From positions 1 through 38,792 of IMG/VR virus record IMGVR_UViG_3300025684_000030: a stretch of 38,792 bases of DNA, one strand, 5' to 3'. This DNA comes from a virus. Below, one piece after another: positions 3,539 through 33,927 of the stretch. A program made the translations under genes and the position numbers. The notes below the pieces were generated by a model. It did not search any database, was not told where the DNA came from, and worked only from the letters and a program-made list of their open reading frames with translations. Within the stretch, counting starts at the first letter, position 1, and each line of letters starts with the position of its first letter.

Positions 3539-3562
3539 GGAATATCCCCCTTGACGGTTTCA

Positions 3563-3591
3563 TTGACCTGTGGTTAACGTAATGGCATAGC
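3563..3591 (+). promoter_or_regulatory. possible promoter of the 3.6-6.8 kb plus operon
   Basis: TTGACC (3563-3568) is followed after 17 bases by CATAGC (3586-3591). The -35 box is good and the -10 box poor. The same ATTGACC sequence and the same AGGAGAATCAC ribosome-binding region recur before the gene at 7499, which supports a shared type of start signal. Confidence 0.35.
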
Positions 3592-3610
3592 AAACGCAAG
3601 GAGAATCACT

Positions 3611-3886
3611 ATGGCCACATACACATACACTCTGATCGACGTTGATACAGAGAACTGCCCCGACAACCTTAAGCACCTCTGCAACGACGATGGCCTCATC
3701 ATCGAATGTGTGGCCACAGCACGTATGGTCCGCAGCGACTATGGTGTTCCTGGTTCGCCCGTTTGGTACGAGCCTGAAGTCGAGGGTATCGAGTTTGAGA
3801 TCAACGGTGAGGTCGTGTCAAAAGTCAGTGATGAAGTTTACGAAATGGCTCACGACGAGGCAGTGGAAATAGGGGAATGGGAATGA
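3611..3886 (+). CDS. hypothetical acidic protein, 91 residues
   Basis: It is the first gene of the plus-strand small-gene operon, with AAGGAG nine bases before the ATG. The product is acidic, with likely beta strands (YTYTLIDVD, LIIECVATARMVR, VEGIEFEINGEVV). No known family is recognised. The stop overlaps the ATG of the next gene (ATGA). Confidence 0.75.
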   Translation: MATYTYTLIDVDTENCPDNLKHLCNDDGLIIECVATARMVRSDYGVPGSPVWYEPEVEGIEFEINGEVVSKVSDEVYEMAHDEAVEIGEWE

Positions 3887-4648: not shown

Positions 4649-5001
4649 CAAATGCTAGGCTAGGAGGCAATGGTAAGTGGCGCTGCACTACAAGGGCCTA
4701 TGTTTCAGGGACATTTAACAGCGGCGGCTGCTCAAACACTGCAAAGCACGACCCAGACGAAAACGGCAACCCCACCAAATGCGGTGTTCACTCAAGCGCG
4801 GCAAAGGCAAGGCGCGACGCAAAGAGCAAAGCCAATCACGAAAAGTGGCGTGCAGAACATCGCCACAAAAACGCAATTTGGAACGCCAAGAACGAACTGA
4901 TCCCATTGGTCCGCTCCATTGCCGATGGCCACAATGACCCGCGCCAAGCCTGCAAGGAATGGCTGGATCGGTGGGAACAGTTGAAGGAGGAAAAGCCATG
5001 A
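4645..5001 (+). CDS. hypothetical basic Cys/His-containing protein
   Basis: 118 residues, starting in the stop of the preceding gene (ATGA). The N-terminal half has spaced Cys and His residues (CTTRAY, GGCSNTAKHD, CGVHS) that could bind a metal, followed by a strongly basic helix (KARRDAKSKANHEKWRAEHRHK). This suggests nucleic acid contact, but it is only inference. The stop overlaps the next start. Confidence 0.68.
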   Translation: MTNARLGGNGKWRCTTRAYVSGTFNSGGCSNTAKHDPDENGNPTKCGVHSSAAKARRDAKSKANHEKWRAEHRHKNAIWNAKNELIPLVRSIADGHNDPRQACKEWLDRWEQLKEEKP

Positions 5002-29280: not shown

Positions 29281-30207
29281 TTAGGCCCGTGTCAGAACCA
29301 AGTTGCTGCCCTCGACGGAGTCGTAGAGGGACACAAACGGCAGTTCGATGATGCGGGATTGGGGGTTTGCCAGCGGCACGTTTGAACCGTTGATCTTGAT
29401 GCGTGGGAAGAAGAACGTGTAAGCGTCTGTGCCACCAGGCGATGCGACCGACACTTGCAACTCTGTCTCAGTCTCGTTCAAGAACTTGTTGATGAGCGTT
29501 GCGTCCTCGTAGTACACCGACATAGTGCCTTCCACGACTGCACGACCAAACTCAAGTTGCGGAGCAGAGTCGGAGCCGACAGCGAAGATCGCTGCGAGCG
29601 AGTTGGACACGCTGAACTCAAGCGAAGTGACGATGCCGAGCAGATCCGCAGTCGCAACGCCGCCCTCAAAGATCGAGCCGTTGTAGCTGTCGAAGGGAGG
29701 GTTACCGGTGATTGCAGTCGGTGCGCCGCCAGTCGAGGCGGTCGAGGCACTCTGCGTCATGTCCTTTCCAACCATCTCAAAGGTCGTGTTGACCATCTGG
29801 TTGGGCGCGATGCTGAACGAAGCCGTCGAAACAGCCATGCCTTTGAACAGGCGGAACTGGCTGATGTCCAAGGCAGCGTCTTCGATGGACAGGAACTTCG
29901 GCGTGGTGCCGATCTTCATCTCTCCGCTGGTCGGGAAAGACGAGAACATGGCAGACTCAAGGAACTCATCGTAGTCGCCTTCACGCAGGTCAACCTCGAT
30001 GGAACCAGAGGCGCTGCGGTTACCGTGGCGATCAACGCGAGGCATCCGATCAGCTTGAATGTCAGCACCCTCAAGGCGTTCTTTAGACAGGCTCAGAGAG
30101 TGTGTCTTGACCGGCAGTTCAGCGAACGTGGGTGTGGTTGGAGTGACGCCAAACGTGCTTTCAGCGATGTAACGGAGCGCGGAGCGGCTCCCCTGTGCAA
30201 ATGCCAT
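29281..30207 (-). CDS. major tail tube protein
   Basis: 308 residues from ATG at 30207, with AAAGGA eight bases upstream; the frame extension to 30246 is not supported. The start MAFAQGSRSALRYIAESTFG and the segment GVTPTTPTFAELPVKTHSLSLSKERLEGAD are typical of phage tail tube proteins of this lineage, as are DRMPRVDRHGNRSASGSIEVD and an Ig-like later half. It builds the tube that carries DNA. A promoter-like sequence and a leader of about 70 bases precede it. Confidence 0.88.
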   Translation of the reverse strand: MAFAQGSRSALRYIAESTFGVTPTTPTFAELPVKTHSLSLSKERLEGADIQADRMPRVDRHGNRSASGSIEVDLREGDYDEFLESAMFSSFPTSGEMKIGTTPKFLSIEDAALDISQFRLFKGMAVSTASFSIAPNQMVNTTFEMVGKDMTQSASTASTGGAPTAITGNPPFDSYNGSIFEGGVATADLLGIVTSLEFSVSNSLAAIFAVGSDSAPQLEFGRAVVEGTMSVYYEDATLINKFLNETETELQVSVASPGGTDAYTFFFPRIKINGSNVPLANPQSRIIELPFVSLYDSVEGSNLVLTRA

Positions 30208-30284
30208 GACCTTAGTCCTTTTCAGGTTGCTAAGGCTATGTTGCAATCATGCCCTAGCTGGTTTCCAGAAACTCAGTTTGGGCC

Positions 30285-30317: not shown

Positions 30318-30722
30318 TCACTCATAGGCGTACCACGAGACTTGGACCGGCGCACAATAGAACGGGTCGTCCATGTAGGACTCCTGCATCTCGCTGTAGT
30401 CGATGGACACATTGACGGATGTGCCGACAGCGTCTGTTGAGCCGTTGAACAGGGACAGCAAGGCGTCAACGTAGTCCAGAGCAGCCCCTGCACCCTTATC
30501 CATCTCTGTACATACAGTGAGTATATACAGCCCTTGGTGGCGGTGCTGCGGGTTTGGTCCGCGATTGGCTGGGCGACGTGATGTCGGAATGAACTGAACA
30601 CGGATGTGCGGCGTTGCGGGAACCTGCTCGTAGCCTACGTTCTGGAACGCAATTACTGGTAGCCCAGAGGCACCAGCGAGTTTGGCATCCAGTGCCTGAC
30701 GTATGTCGTTAATGATGGTCAT
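30318..30722 (-). CDS. tail terminator protein (DUF4128-like)
   Basis: 134 residues. MTIINDIRQALDAKLAG, PHIRVQFIPTSRRPANRG, and YILTVCTEMDKGAGAALDYVDALLSLF match the tail terminator group that caps the tail tube and lies just before the tail tube gene. It overlaps the previous gene by four bases. A 110-base leader to the tail tube gene follows. Confidence 0.78.
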   Translation of the reverse strand: MTIINDIRQALDAKLAGASGLPVIAFQNVGYEQVPATPHIRVQFIPTSRRPANRGPNPQHRHQGLYILTVCTEMDKGAGAALDYVDALLSLFNGSTDAVGTSVNVSIDYSEMQESYMDDPFYCAPVQVSWYAYE

Positions 30723-31709: not shown

Positions 31710-32285
31710 TTATACAAGATCACTCAAGGGGTAGGTCTTGAAGGCGGTTACCCTACTACCCTCTGGTCCGACAAAGTTCACGATATTAACATCGCTCTGG
31801 TCAATCGTGTCAAAAGCGCGTTGCCACGTCGCCAAATGCCGGTCAGCCTGCTTATTCTGCCAGTAGTAACCGTCGTGGAAATGGGACTGACCAGCCGACC
31901 ATTGAAAGTCGAAGCCCAACAATGCAATCTCTCTATAGCCTAGAAGATATGCAAGGTTCAGAGCAGCAAACCCTGAGTTAGATCCGCGTATTACGTTGGG
32001 GTCTTTGGAGAACCCATCGCCTCGATCATGCTCCATGATCTTAGCGCCATGATCCGGCTGGTCCTGTAGCGTGTTATGTGTGATATATTTGTCACCACTG
32101 AACGCTGCGATCTGCTCTTGGTGTTCACGCCAGAACCTCTTGTCGATGCTGACAAGAGCGTCACAGTTTGCAAGCCACGCTGACTTGTTTGAGCCGATAC
32201 GATATCCCCCTGGCAGGGCGTCAAAGTCAAAGCCAGCAAGTGATGGTCCAGATCCGATGACGTAGCAGGGGGATTTATATGTCAT
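31710..32285 (-). CDS. glycosyltransferase-fold protein (GT42/DUF115-like)
   Basis: 191 residues. CYVIGSGPSLAGFDFDALPG opens the protein, and NSGFAALNLAYLLGYREIALLG follows later, then FDFQW. The same layout occurs in GT42 sialyltransferases such as CstII (GNGPSL, later SGVYMCAVAIALGYKEI) and in DUF115/MptE-like proteins. It may transfer a sugar onto a virion protein or host surface, or have a nucleotide-sugar role. It lies in an accessory island and is not a normal head-tail gene. The ATG at 32285 lacks a Shine-Dalgarno sequence; a promoter-like sequence ends six bases before it. A longer frame to 32492 would overlap the opposite gene. Confidence 0.65.
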   Translation of the reverse strand: MTYKSPCYVIGSGPSLAGFDFDALPGGYRIGSNKSAWLANCDALVSIDKRFWREHQEQIAAFSGDKYITHNTLQDQPDHGAKIMEHDRGDGFSKDPNVIRGSNSGFAALNLAYLLGYREIALLGFDFQWSAGQSHFHDGYYWQNKQADRHLATWQRAFDTIDQSDVNIVNFVGPEGSRVTAFKTYPLSDLV

Positions 32286-32291
32286 GCCAAA

Positions 32292-32320
32292 CCAATAAAA
32301 CTGCTTGACGAATCGCGCAA
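32292..32320 (-). promoter_or_regulatory. possible leaderless promoter, shares motif with 35302-35330
   Basis: On the minus strand TTGCGC (32320-32315), a 17-base spacer beginning GATTCGTCAA, and TATTGG (32297-32292) lie just before the ATG at 32285. The same TTGCnnGATTCGTCAA sequence forms the -35 region of the site at 35302-35330. The boxes alone are weak; the shared sequence is the main support. Confidence 0.45.
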
Positions 32321-32363
32321 GGCCGTGGTTCCTATGGTCAACGGAACACAATAGGAGCAGACA

Positions 32364-32861
32364 ATGAGCATTACCAGCGAGGCAGTTAAGCAGGCATGGG
32401 AAACGGCGAGCAATGTCGATGAAGCCTGCGCCAACCTTGAGCGCATGATGAACGCAGACCACGGACTGCATCGCGCAGTCATGCTGCCGCACGTCAAGTC
32501 TGCGGTTCGCTCACTGGTGAACGGCTCTAAGAATAGTGAGCGAAAGATGATCTGGGACCGGTCCATGCCAAACAAGGCATGGCAGCGACCTGTTGCGCCG
32601 GACAACCGTGTAGCGGCTCTGGCGCAAATCAACAGCATGACAATCCTAGATATGCGCCTTCGCAGCGGAAAGCGTCTTGCTGACGCAACCATCTCTGATG
32701 TTTCTAGCGAGCGGGATTACTACTCTGAAATGGCGAGCCACATGAGCGACAAGGCAACCTTCTTTGCCAAGGTTGTGGAGCGCATGGAAGAGTTGAAGAA
32801 GAAAACGGTGGCCGAGGCGTTCAACGTGAACGACCTCGAAGCCATCAGGGTTGCGGCGTAA
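32364..32861 (+). CDS. hypothetical island protein, 165 residues
   Basis: It lies on the strand opposite to the structural genes. AGGAG is seven bases before the ATG. The product is helical: an N-terminal part with VDEACANLERMMNADHG, a basic middle (GSKNSERKMIWDRSMPNKAWQ) and a C-terminal region with MASHMSDKATFFAKVVERME. I do not recognise the family. The leader AGGAGCAGACA resembles that of the next gene (AGGAACAGACA), so the two plus-strand genes may be controlled together. Confidence 0.7.
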   Translation: MSITSEAVKQAWETASNVDEACANLERMMNADHGLHRAVMLPHVKSAVRSLVNGSKNSERKMIWDRSMPNKAWQRPVAPDNRVAALAQINSMTILDMRLRSGKRLADATISDVSSERDYYSEMASHMSDKATFFAKVVERMEELKKKTVAEAFNVNDLEAIRVAA

Positions 32862-32866
32862 GCCGT

Positions 32867-32922
32867 ATGTGTGGTTGTCCACTCCGAGCCAGATAGCCAA
32901 AGCTGCAGTTACGACCACACAT
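32867..32922 (+). ncRNA. stem-loop A of the island stem-loop family
   Basis: ATGTGTGGTTGT (32867-32878) pairs over 12 bases with ACGACCACACAT (32911-32922), with one T-G pair that is only stable as RNA from the plus strand. The 32-base loop has AGATAGCCA at loop positions 13-21, two changes from the AGAAACCCA of the other three copies. It begins six bases after the stop of the preceding gene. No T run follows, so it is not a terminator. Confidence 0.55.
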
Positions 32923-32943
32923 CTAACGCTCCGTAAAGGAGTA

Positions 32944-32989
32944 GCGGCGGCCAGTATGCCACAGAAACCCATGCATATAATGCCGTCGC
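32944..32989 (+). ncRNA. stem-loop U, upstream of the IS110-like gene
   Basis: GCGGCGGC (32944-32951) pairs over 8 bases with GCCGTCGC (32982-32989), including one G-T pair that fits plus-strand RNA. The 30-base loop starts CAGTATGCC, has two variable bases, then AGAAACCCATG, then an eight-base variable end that contains TATAAT. The loop start and centre are repeated in stem-loop D1. Confidence 0.62.
32976..32981 (+). promoter_or_regulatory. possible -10 box inside stem-loop U
   Basis: A perfect TATAAT lies in the variable part of the loop, 31 bases before the ATG at 33012. No -35 box is seen at 17 bases, so its use as promoter is uncertain. If used, the message would start near the end of the stem-loop and the stem-loop would be a DNA operator or not transcribed. 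Confidence 0.35.
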
Positions 32990-33011
32990 GCAGACAAAAA
33001 GGAACAGACAT

Positions 33012-33794
33012 ATGAAAGACGTTATAGACTACGAAGATTTTGGGGCCATCAGTCCAAGTAAGACCGTTTCCCATAAGCCCCAGACAGAGGATCTGCGATT
33101 TTCAGATCCTCTGGTTATTCAGATCGTTGAAGCATGGAGGGCGCGTCAGGACATGGTTCGAGCGCAGCAAAAACTCACGCTTCAGGTCAAAGCGATCTGC
33201 CGCAGGTTTTGTGGCGGCGACAAGGACGAAGCGGAAAAGCTGTATAAGCGAATTGAGAAAGGCGACGGAGGTGACGCTGCTCTTGCTGTTGCCCCGCTTC
33301 TCATGGCCCGCGAACCCCTCGAAGTGCAGCGCAAGTCATACGAAAAGACACTGGAGAAAATGGCAAAGAAACTCCCGATCTATTCCTACACGGAGTCGAT
33401 CAAGGGTTTCGGCGCAATGTCTTTGGCCAAGACTGTTGGCGAGTGCGGAGATCTTTCGGCATACCCTTCCGTGTCGGGCGTGTGGAAGCGGGCGGGTCTT
33501 GCCGTAATCAACGGTGGTAGGCAGCGCCGCATAGCAGGTGAGGAAGCCTTGCTGCACGGATACAGCCCTATCAGGCGCAGCGTGTTCTGGAACATCGCTG
33601 ATCCGCTATTGAAGTGCCAAGGCAAGGACGAGAACGCGCTCCTTTATAGGCAGATTTACGACAAGCGCAAAGAGTATGAGTTGTCTCGTGATATTCCGAA
33701 AGGACACGCGCACAACCGCGCCATGCGCTACATGACGAAAGAACTCCTCAAGCACCTTACGCTTGAATGGAAAAGAATCGCCCGTCAGCAATGA
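33012..33794 (+). CDS. IS110-type transposase C-terminal-domain protein
   Basis: 260 residues. Residues about 125-255 resemble the C-terminal Tnp_20 domain of IS110-family transposases: IKGFGAMSLAKTVGECGDLS with a helix-hairpin-helix, SVSGVWKRAGLAV, GGRQRRIAG, and AHNRAMRYMTKELLKHLTLEWK at the end. The N-terminal RuvC-like DEDD domain of these enzymes is absent; instead there is a helical part with LTLQVKAICRRF. The position of the catalytic Ser (usually in an SG pair) reads INGG here. Probably a domesticated nucleic-acid-binding protein rather than an active recombinase. It is flanked by four related stem-loops. AAAAGGAA precedes the ATG. Confidence 0.68.
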   Translation: MKDVIDYEDFGAISPSKTVSHKPQTEDLRFSDPLVIQIVEAWRARQDMVRAQQKLTLQVKAICRRFCGGDKDEAEKLYKRIEKGDGGDAALAVAPLLMAREPLEVQRKSYEKTLEKMAKKLPIYSYTESIKGFGAMSLAKTVGECGDLSAYPSVSGVWKRAGLAVINGGRQRRIAGEEALLHGYSPIRRSVFWNIADPLLKCQGKDENALLYRQIYDKRKEYELSRDIPKGHAHNRAMRYMTKELLKHLTLEWKRIARQQ

Positions 33795-33800
33795 CAGGTG

Positions 33801-33846
33801 GCGGCAACCAGTATGCCCTAGAAACCCATGTCCGATACGTTGCCGC
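33801..33846 (+). ncRNA. stem-loop D1, downstream of the IS110-like gene
   Basis: GCGGCAAC (33801-33808) pairs perfectly with GTTGCCGC (33839-33846). The 30-base loop starts CAGTATGCC, two variable bases, AGAAACCCATG, then a different eight-base end. The arms differ from those of stem-loop U by changes on both sides that keep pairing. It begins six bases after the stop codon at 33794. Confidence 0.62.
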
Positions 33847-33855
33847 AGAAACAAC

Positions 33856-33899
33856 GTGTGACCATGCTGGGCGAGAAACCCAACTCCACACAGTCACAC
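33856..33899 (+). ncRNA. stem-loop D2, downstream of the IS110-like gene
   Basis: GTGTGAC (33856-33862) pairs perfectly with GTCACAC (33893-33899). The loop is again 30 bases, with AGAAACCCA at loop positions 12-20 as in U and D1, but other parts differ. It lies ten bases after D1 and two bases before the terminator. Confidence 0.58.
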
Positions 33900-33901
33900 T
33901 A

Positions 33902-33927
33902 AAGGGTCATCCTCGCGGATGGCCCTT
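33902..33927. terminator. hairpin terminator between convergent genes
   Basis: AAGGGTCATCC (33902-33912) pairs over 11 bases with GGATGGCCCTT (33917-33927), with one T-G pair and a four-base loop that reads GCGA (GNRA type) on the minus strand. T-rich tails are short on both sides. It ends the minus-strand connector-methyltransferase unit and the plus-strand island genes. Confidence 0.7.

Follow-up and report, generated by a model that had tools for sequence, protein, structure and literature searches.

The window analysed here, an IMG/VR virus record of 38,792 bases, carries its tail and head genes on the minus strand, and its major capsid protein is 49% identical to the counterpart in Roseobacter phage RDJL Phi 1. 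A plus-strand block (about 32300-33925) breaks into these structural genes and contains, in order, a gene for a protein of 165 amino acids (p165), two stem-loops, a gene for a protein of 260 amino acids, two further stem-loops and a terminator-like hairpin. The locus is almost certainly a stem-loop TIGR-TasA system, and positions 32364-33925 very likely form a phage-borne cassette of this type together with the linked p165 gene. The features are as follows.

32303-32315, plus strand: candidate -35 region of the cassette promoter, GCTTGACGAATCG (weak; read from the sequence)
32364-32861, plus strand: p165 gene, 165 amino acids, conserved partner of stem-loop tas loci (profile family, actinophage homologues)
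32867-32922, plus strand: stem-loop U1, with spacer A CTCCGAGCC (32882-32890), centre AGATAGCCA (32891-32899) and spacer B AAGCTGCAG (32900-32908); its stem matches the unit at 3798 of the nearest relative, L002, and its edge box D is altered (TT)
32944-32989, plus strand: stem-loop U2, with spacer A GTATGCCAC (32954-32962), centre AGAAACCCA (32963-32971) and spacer B TGCATATAA (32972-32980)
33012-33794, plus strand: tasA gene, 260 amino acids, Nop-domain protein without nuclease (phmmer, AlphaFold2 model)
33801-33846, plus strand: stem-loop D1, with spacer A GTATGCCCT (33811-33819), centre AGAAACCCA (33820-33828) and spacer B TGTCCGATA (33829-33837)
33856-33899, plus strand: stem-loop D2, with spacer A TGCTGGGCG (33865-33873), centre AGAAACCCA (33874-33882) and spacer B ACTCCACAC (33883-33891)
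33904-33925, plus strand: 9-bp hairpin GGGTCATCC-TCGC-GGATGGCCC, then TTACTTT (read from the sequence)

In the TIGR-Tas systems described by Faure 2025 (PMC12045711), spacers of usually 9 nucleotides (nt) go with a box C (CCA) and a box D (UG), and each spacer pairs with one strand of the adjacent target. Two Tas clades have stem-loop arrays with variable palindromic arms, and for one such array expression and processing to hairpins were demonstrated. The main text of that study describes generally one protein per system, with an occasional ParB-like gene; the job of TasA and the origin and targets of the spacers were left open. Since the window follows these published rules (UG and CCA boxes, 9-nt spacers, stem-loop arrays accompanied by TasA), we place the locus within TIGR-Tas.

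Architecture of the hairpin units

The first-pass annotation had described four stem-loops with pairing arms flanking the 260-amino-acid gene. Their coordinates, arms and loop lengths (32, 30, 30 and 30 nt) are confirmed, and AGAAACCCA and AGATAGCCA occupy the loop positions claimed for them, as does the shared CAGTATGCC. What had gone unnoticed is that CCA occurs twice in each unit, once straddling the end of the 5' arm and once ending the centre. This recurrence splits the loop into two variable stretches of 9 nt, so that the unit plan, enclosed within the stem, reads CCA, nine variable positions, AG-N4-CCA and nine further variable positions. The boxes are CCA GTATGCCAC AG-AAAC-CCA TGCATATAA TG in U2, CCA GTATGCCCT AG-AAAC-CCA TGTCCGATA CG in D1, CCA TGCTGGGCG AG-AAAC-CCA ACTCCACAC AG in D2, and CCA CTCCGAGCC AG-ATAG-CCA AAGCTGCAG in U1, followed there by an altered 3' box, TT, where NG is expected. 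Apart from this one box, the units conform to the TIGR arrangement of two spacers of 8-12 nt set by box C and box D (CCA-9-NG-N4-CCA-9-NG). A strict unit finder retrieved 3 units in 32860-33905, compared with a mean of 0.0045 in dinucleotide shuffles; U1, with its TT, was added by hand.

Single-unit folding energies are only moderately low on the plus strand (z scores of -2.5, -2.5, -1.1 and -1.6), and the minus-strand values (-2.2, -0.7, -0.7 and -3.5) show that energy does not resolve the strand. Because these energies are unremarkable and strand neutral, the case rests on comparison with homologues. Across 105 homologue sequences, the unit finder detected 301 units on the tas strand, 24 on the opposite strand and 6 in shuffles, and it is this concentration on the tas strand that supports our strand assignment. 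When loops were chosen by motif only, with no stem required, a stem of at least 6 bp was present on the tas strand in 51% of the 30-nt class and in 72% of a second class, which has 34-nt loops and the repeat YGCAGAAATGCCA; the proportion was 0% both on the opposite strand and in shuffles. Variable palindromic arms thus stand in place of edge repeats, as in published stem-loop TIGR arrays, and they do so on the tas strand only. In a logo of 216 distinct units of the 30-nt class, all 18 spacer positions carry 0.00-0.06 bits and the boxes far more, the box columns being partly fixed because the finder itself demands part of the boxes.

The first-pass suggestion that the stem-loops are guide or recognition RNAs for the neighbouring protein is very probably right: the arrays recur beside tas homologues, in the orientation of tas, and loops selected by motif pair. 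An Rfam scan of the window brought no family to its gathering threshold.

The 9-bp hairpin at 33904-33925 is probably the terminator of the cassette, judging from its sequence. L002 has an equivalent hairpin in the same place (AGAGGGGCGC-TTCG-GCGTCCCTCT), and a pattern scan for terminators did not pick the window's hairpin. L002 also shares GCTTGACGAATCG with the window, at the same spot ahead of the upstream gene; a sigma-70 scan found no promoter for the cassette, which leaves GCTTGACGAATCG a weak candidate for a -35 region. In addition, the inner stem of D2 is identical to that of the L002 unit at 4761, and the spacers differ.

A Nop-domain protein without nuclease and its homologues

Among solved structures, the only significant sequence match of the 33012-33794 protein is TasR (PDB 9mty; phmmer E value of 1e-13) rather than IS110. 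The AlphaFold2 model (pLDDT, the predicted local distance difference test score, of 87.9) comprises disordered residues 1-23 followed by a coiled coil and a Nop domain, and its structural matches rank from TasR 9mty (Z 17.6) and TasH (16.4) through IS621/ISCro4 (about 14) to Nop5/Prp31 (about 8). Sequence and fold therefore identify a Nop-domain Tas protein. Searches of Pfam and PHROGs returned no nuclease family, with DEDD, RuvC and HNH all absent, as expected of TasA. The earlier label of an IS110-like gene holds as far as a relation to IS110 goes; the protein is not an IS110 transposase, since it lacks the DEDD catalytic domain and has no room for one.

The closest published system is the TIGR-TasA stem-loop array of a Peromyscus leucopus gut contig (PMC12045711), which likewise has a Nop-domain protein devoid of nuclease and tandem hairpins with variable palindromic arms and two short spacers set by box C/D motifs. 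The window differs in its loop fixed at 30 nt, its four units only, its setting in a phage structural region and its upstream partner p165, which the main text of that study does not mention. Dual-repeat TIGR-TasR/TasH systems (PDB 9mty, 9w02-9w04) share the protein fold, the CCA and NG boxes and the 9-nt spacers; in the window, however, there is no RuvC or HNH nuclease, and hairpins replace edge repeats. IS110/IS621 bridge-RNA recombinases have in common with the window the Nop/Transposase_20 C-terminal domain and a dual guide logic, but the window has neither the DEDD domain nor a two-loop bridge RNA. Archaeal and eukaryotic box C/D ribonucleoproteins (Nop5) resemble it in Nop fold and box C/D guide logic, although searches limited to p165 and tas matched no L7Ae or fibrillarin family.

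Loci with tas homologues were found with the single protein as query (8), with an alignment in IMG/VR (80) and in bacterial and archaeal genomes (14, including Bosea, Shinella, Rhizobium, Metarhizobium, Magnetospirillum and Methylobacterium); no DNA relatives of the locus were found among isolate phages. An Altiarchaeales contig (L104) has a related tas gene beside a classic dual-repeat TIGR array with 9-nt spacers, starting at about 6770, in which AGCGAGCCA alternates with AGAAACCCA, the latter being the window's own repeat. In Microcystis phage Mvi-JY20 (L251), box motifs spaced by 18 nt at about 3547-3600 suggest another dual-repeat array.

Cultured phages also carry stem-loop TIGR arrays, with about 3 to 7 clear units each and adjoining genes annotated merely as hypothetical proteins: Mycobacterium phage Rich (L255/L259), Gordonia phage Morrissey (L256), LonelyBoi (L261), BENtherdunthat (L262), Peregrin (L254) and Rhizobium phage RHph_X2_25 (L010). 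Moreover, 76 Mycobacterium phage records encode a relative of the window's tas gene, those opened being Fromanvirus. These homologues (L260, L264-L267 and the 76 records), annotated as transposase, DNA-binding or hypothetical protein, are probably TasA.

The linked p165 gene, cassette exchange and spacer replacement

Using an iterated hidden Markov model built from the window's p165, we found a single copy in 84 of 96 tas loci, in each case upstream of tas and on its strand. Units lie between the two genes in 81 of these 84 (419 units, compared with 34 before p165 and 31 after tas). In 8 of the 12 loci with no p165 match, at most a few hundred bases separate tas from the locus start, near a contig end; the others are L100, L103, the dual-repeat locus L104, and L009, in which no array was found. 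Weak matches do occur at the expected place in L100 and in Gordonia phage Morrissey (gp43). In actinophages, the genes in the equivalent place give matches to the profile that range from weak to clear (E values of 4.7e-10 to 0.019 in a seven-sequence set), with a profile-profile probability of 88 versus under 1 for controls. Behind the loci stand 14 whole genomes, 11 of which hold one copy of p165; the three without (G059, G062 and G063) are those containing L100, L103 and L104. Among 397 genomes of one order, scored for their best first-look candidates, p165 occurs in 1 and tas in 2.

The p165 protein is predicted to be all helical (confident model, pLDDT 91.9), and identity to the window copy falls to 11% across very diverse phages. 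It has no reliable family match in Pfam, PHROGs or NCBIfam, and its model has no counterpart in the PDB by Foldseek. Matches of the profile to PDB sequences, mainly designed TPR repeats aligned along a helix pair, in which no stretch was significant alone, were attributed to composition. Against BFVD, Foldseek retrieved a viral protein of 172 amino acids (E value of 8e-4), which has the length of Rhodococcus phage Peregrin gp186, this identity being unconfirmed. The near-invariant residues are few and do not look catalytic. We consider p165 a likely functional partner of the system, and probably a structural or adaptor subunit of the complex. It could also be a passenger that merely travels with the array, consistent with its lack of a predicted enzyme or known fold and with its absence from a few tas loci (L100 and L103, going by the first model, together with L104 and L009, whose array is of another type or missing). 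This is unlikely, however, given that it lies upstream of tas in 84 of 96 loci from widely differing phages, that it moves with the cassette in a relative of the window phage (G001) and that it is included in the Rich/Baee exchange described below. The gene is apparently undescribed, and its linkage to tas goes beyond the main text of PMC12045711.

The cassette is a swappable module. In G001, its neighbours are the homologues of window genes 30318-30722 and 29281-30246, and the genes bordering it in the window stand next to each other; the cassette is missing from a further five relatives whose sequence spans the region (L221, L226, L227, L230 and L233). Mycobacteriophages Rich and Baee are filed as one species and their flanks are 95-97% identical; where Rich has a 1.65-kb segment, Baee has unrelated genes instead. 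The Rich segment starts 9 bases before the first stem-loop and ends 1 base after the last, with p165 and tas inside. This mobility, too, is not covered by the main text of PMC12045711. Genes 51-52 of Baee (L263) are unrelated genes exactly at the place of the TIGR cassette, and the site may be an exchange hotspot. The tail region of the window includes an MptE-like gene (31710-32285, minus strand; PHROGs label alpha-2,3-sialyltransferase, phrog_4603, E value of 7e-26), which adjoins a methyltransferase gene.

Spacers are replaced within an otherwise stable array. In 23 pairs of carriers with tas at least 97% identical (34-nt class), identity is 97.6% in tas, 96.7% in stems, 90.9% in loop repeats and 90.2% in linkers, and 46.9% in each of spacers A and B. 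The 249 distinct comparisons of homologous units are bimodal: 22 are identical in both spacers, and most differ at 5-8 of 9 positions. Spacers A and B usually change together, the pairs being replaced in place. Five cultured mycobacteriophages (BPBiebs31, SarFire, Marsha, HarryOW and Buttons) have nearly unchanged stems and repeats and different spacers, and the HarryOW array is a mosaic whose first unit carries the spacer pair of Buttons, the second and last those of BPBiebs31 and the third that of Marsha. The simplest reading is that spacer pairs would be exchanged by recombination in the constant stems and repeats. This measure of spacer replacement likewise extends beyond the main text of PMC12045711. 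Half-units may be shared as well: the spacer A of U2, GTATGCCAC (32954-32962), recurs in a Rhizobium unit (L096, 4873) with a different spacer B, and the units at L010 4948 and L098 5490, from distant hosts, have the same 9-nt spacer A and different spacers B. This recurrence of one spacer in distant loci (GTATGCCAC; ATGAAGCAT) is suggestive, chance alone predicting 0.3 exact A-A matches; it may reflect half-unit recombination, a shared half-target or chance.

Proposed function and rival explanations

We propose that the units probably give plus-strand transcripts, which would be cleaved into individual hairpins, each presenting two spacers of 9 nt delimited by CCA (box C) and NG (box D). A TasA dimer would hold one hairpin, and on an adjacent DNA target of 18 bp each of the hairpin's two spacers would base-pair with a different strand. 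Since TasA has no nuclease, it should act by binding and bending the target, thereby blocking transcription or replication. The targets would most likely belong to competing phages or other mobile DNA. Binding of competitor DNA, guided by RNA and without cutting, appears to be the most likely function, and fast-changing guides combined with cassette swapping accord better with competition between mobile elements than with fixed self-regulation. As the biological purpose, competitor silencing is about equally likely to be right or wrong.

Several points weigh against this proposal. There is no direct evidence for competitor targeting, and in published tests nuclease-bearing TasR gave no protection from phage or conjugation (PMC12045711). 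The window array has only four units, one with an altered box, versus the 5 to 15 usual in dual-repeat arrays. When 396 spacer pairs were compared with 2.16 Mb of carrier phages (gap of 0-2, up to two mismatches), the 177 non-self matches (27 at one mismatch, from five independent units) did not differ significantly from decoys (135-152). Exact IMG/VR scans with the four window pairs yielded 5, 2, 4 and 1 contigs, duplicates included, and a decoy yielded 1. Among 50,697 phage records, N-padded 18-mer queries limited to gap 0 and perfect matches, with an 18-mer control that was found, retrieved no match for units 1-2 of Rich, for two units of BPBiebs31 or for one of Morrissey. For the D1 target arrangement, an exact 18-nt match falls inside a terminase-like gene (L210, 7155-7172) and is within chance expectation; the phage concerned is unrelated to the window phage and comes from the same metagenome as the carrier L012.

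Instead of competitors, the guides might regulate the phage's own or host genes, in the manner of nuclease-dead TnpB repressors. The lack of a nuclease in TasA and the conservation of some spacer pairs between related phages (the 22 fully identical units) are compatible with such a role, which we nevertheless regard as rather unlikely: the spacers are the fastest-changing part of the locus, which is unexpected for fixed own targets, and own-genome matches are unconvincing (10 at two mismatches versus 3-5 for decoys, not significant; none better than decoys in Rich or Morrissey; the host was not systematically searched). Far less probable is an IS110-type element, decayed or minimal, that uses the stem-loops, as bridge-RNA remnants, for transposition, despite a weak Transposase_20 match, a PHROG label of transposase and the different places of the cassette in related phages. 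The missing DEDD domain, for which 260 residues with a disordered stretch at 1-23 leave no room, largely refutes it, and TasR as the sole significant match among solved structures and the hundreds of intact homologous units also oppose it. Nor are the units bridge RNAs, which the first-pass annotation had cited as a parallel: each locus has several independent one-loop units on both sides of the gene, with no donor loop, and not one two-loop RNA at an element end. Equally improbable is that the stem-loops are DNA sites or terminators and attenuators of the flanking genes, as their positions between genes and at the transcript end might suggest. Indeed, the loops are fixed at 30 nt with two random 9-nt stretches, no T-run directly follows the units, units occur both before and after genes, and stems are kept while loop stretches change completely.

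Returning to competitor silencing, we tentatively put forward a broader idea, somewhat less probable than not, in which stem-loop TIGR would be a two-protein, horizontally swapped phage weapon, with p165 obligatory and specific to hairpin arrays and the guides, as 9+9-nt alleles at fixed positions in the array, belonging to a common pool that recombines. If so, phages would update their repertoire by recombination, without an adaptation machine. The near-universal second gene, the measure of spacer replacement and the versions found in cultured M. smegmatis and Gordonia phages make the questions about the job of TasA and the origin and targets of its spacers testable in ordinary laboratory strains, and the Rich/Baee pair offers a natural plus/minus comparison.
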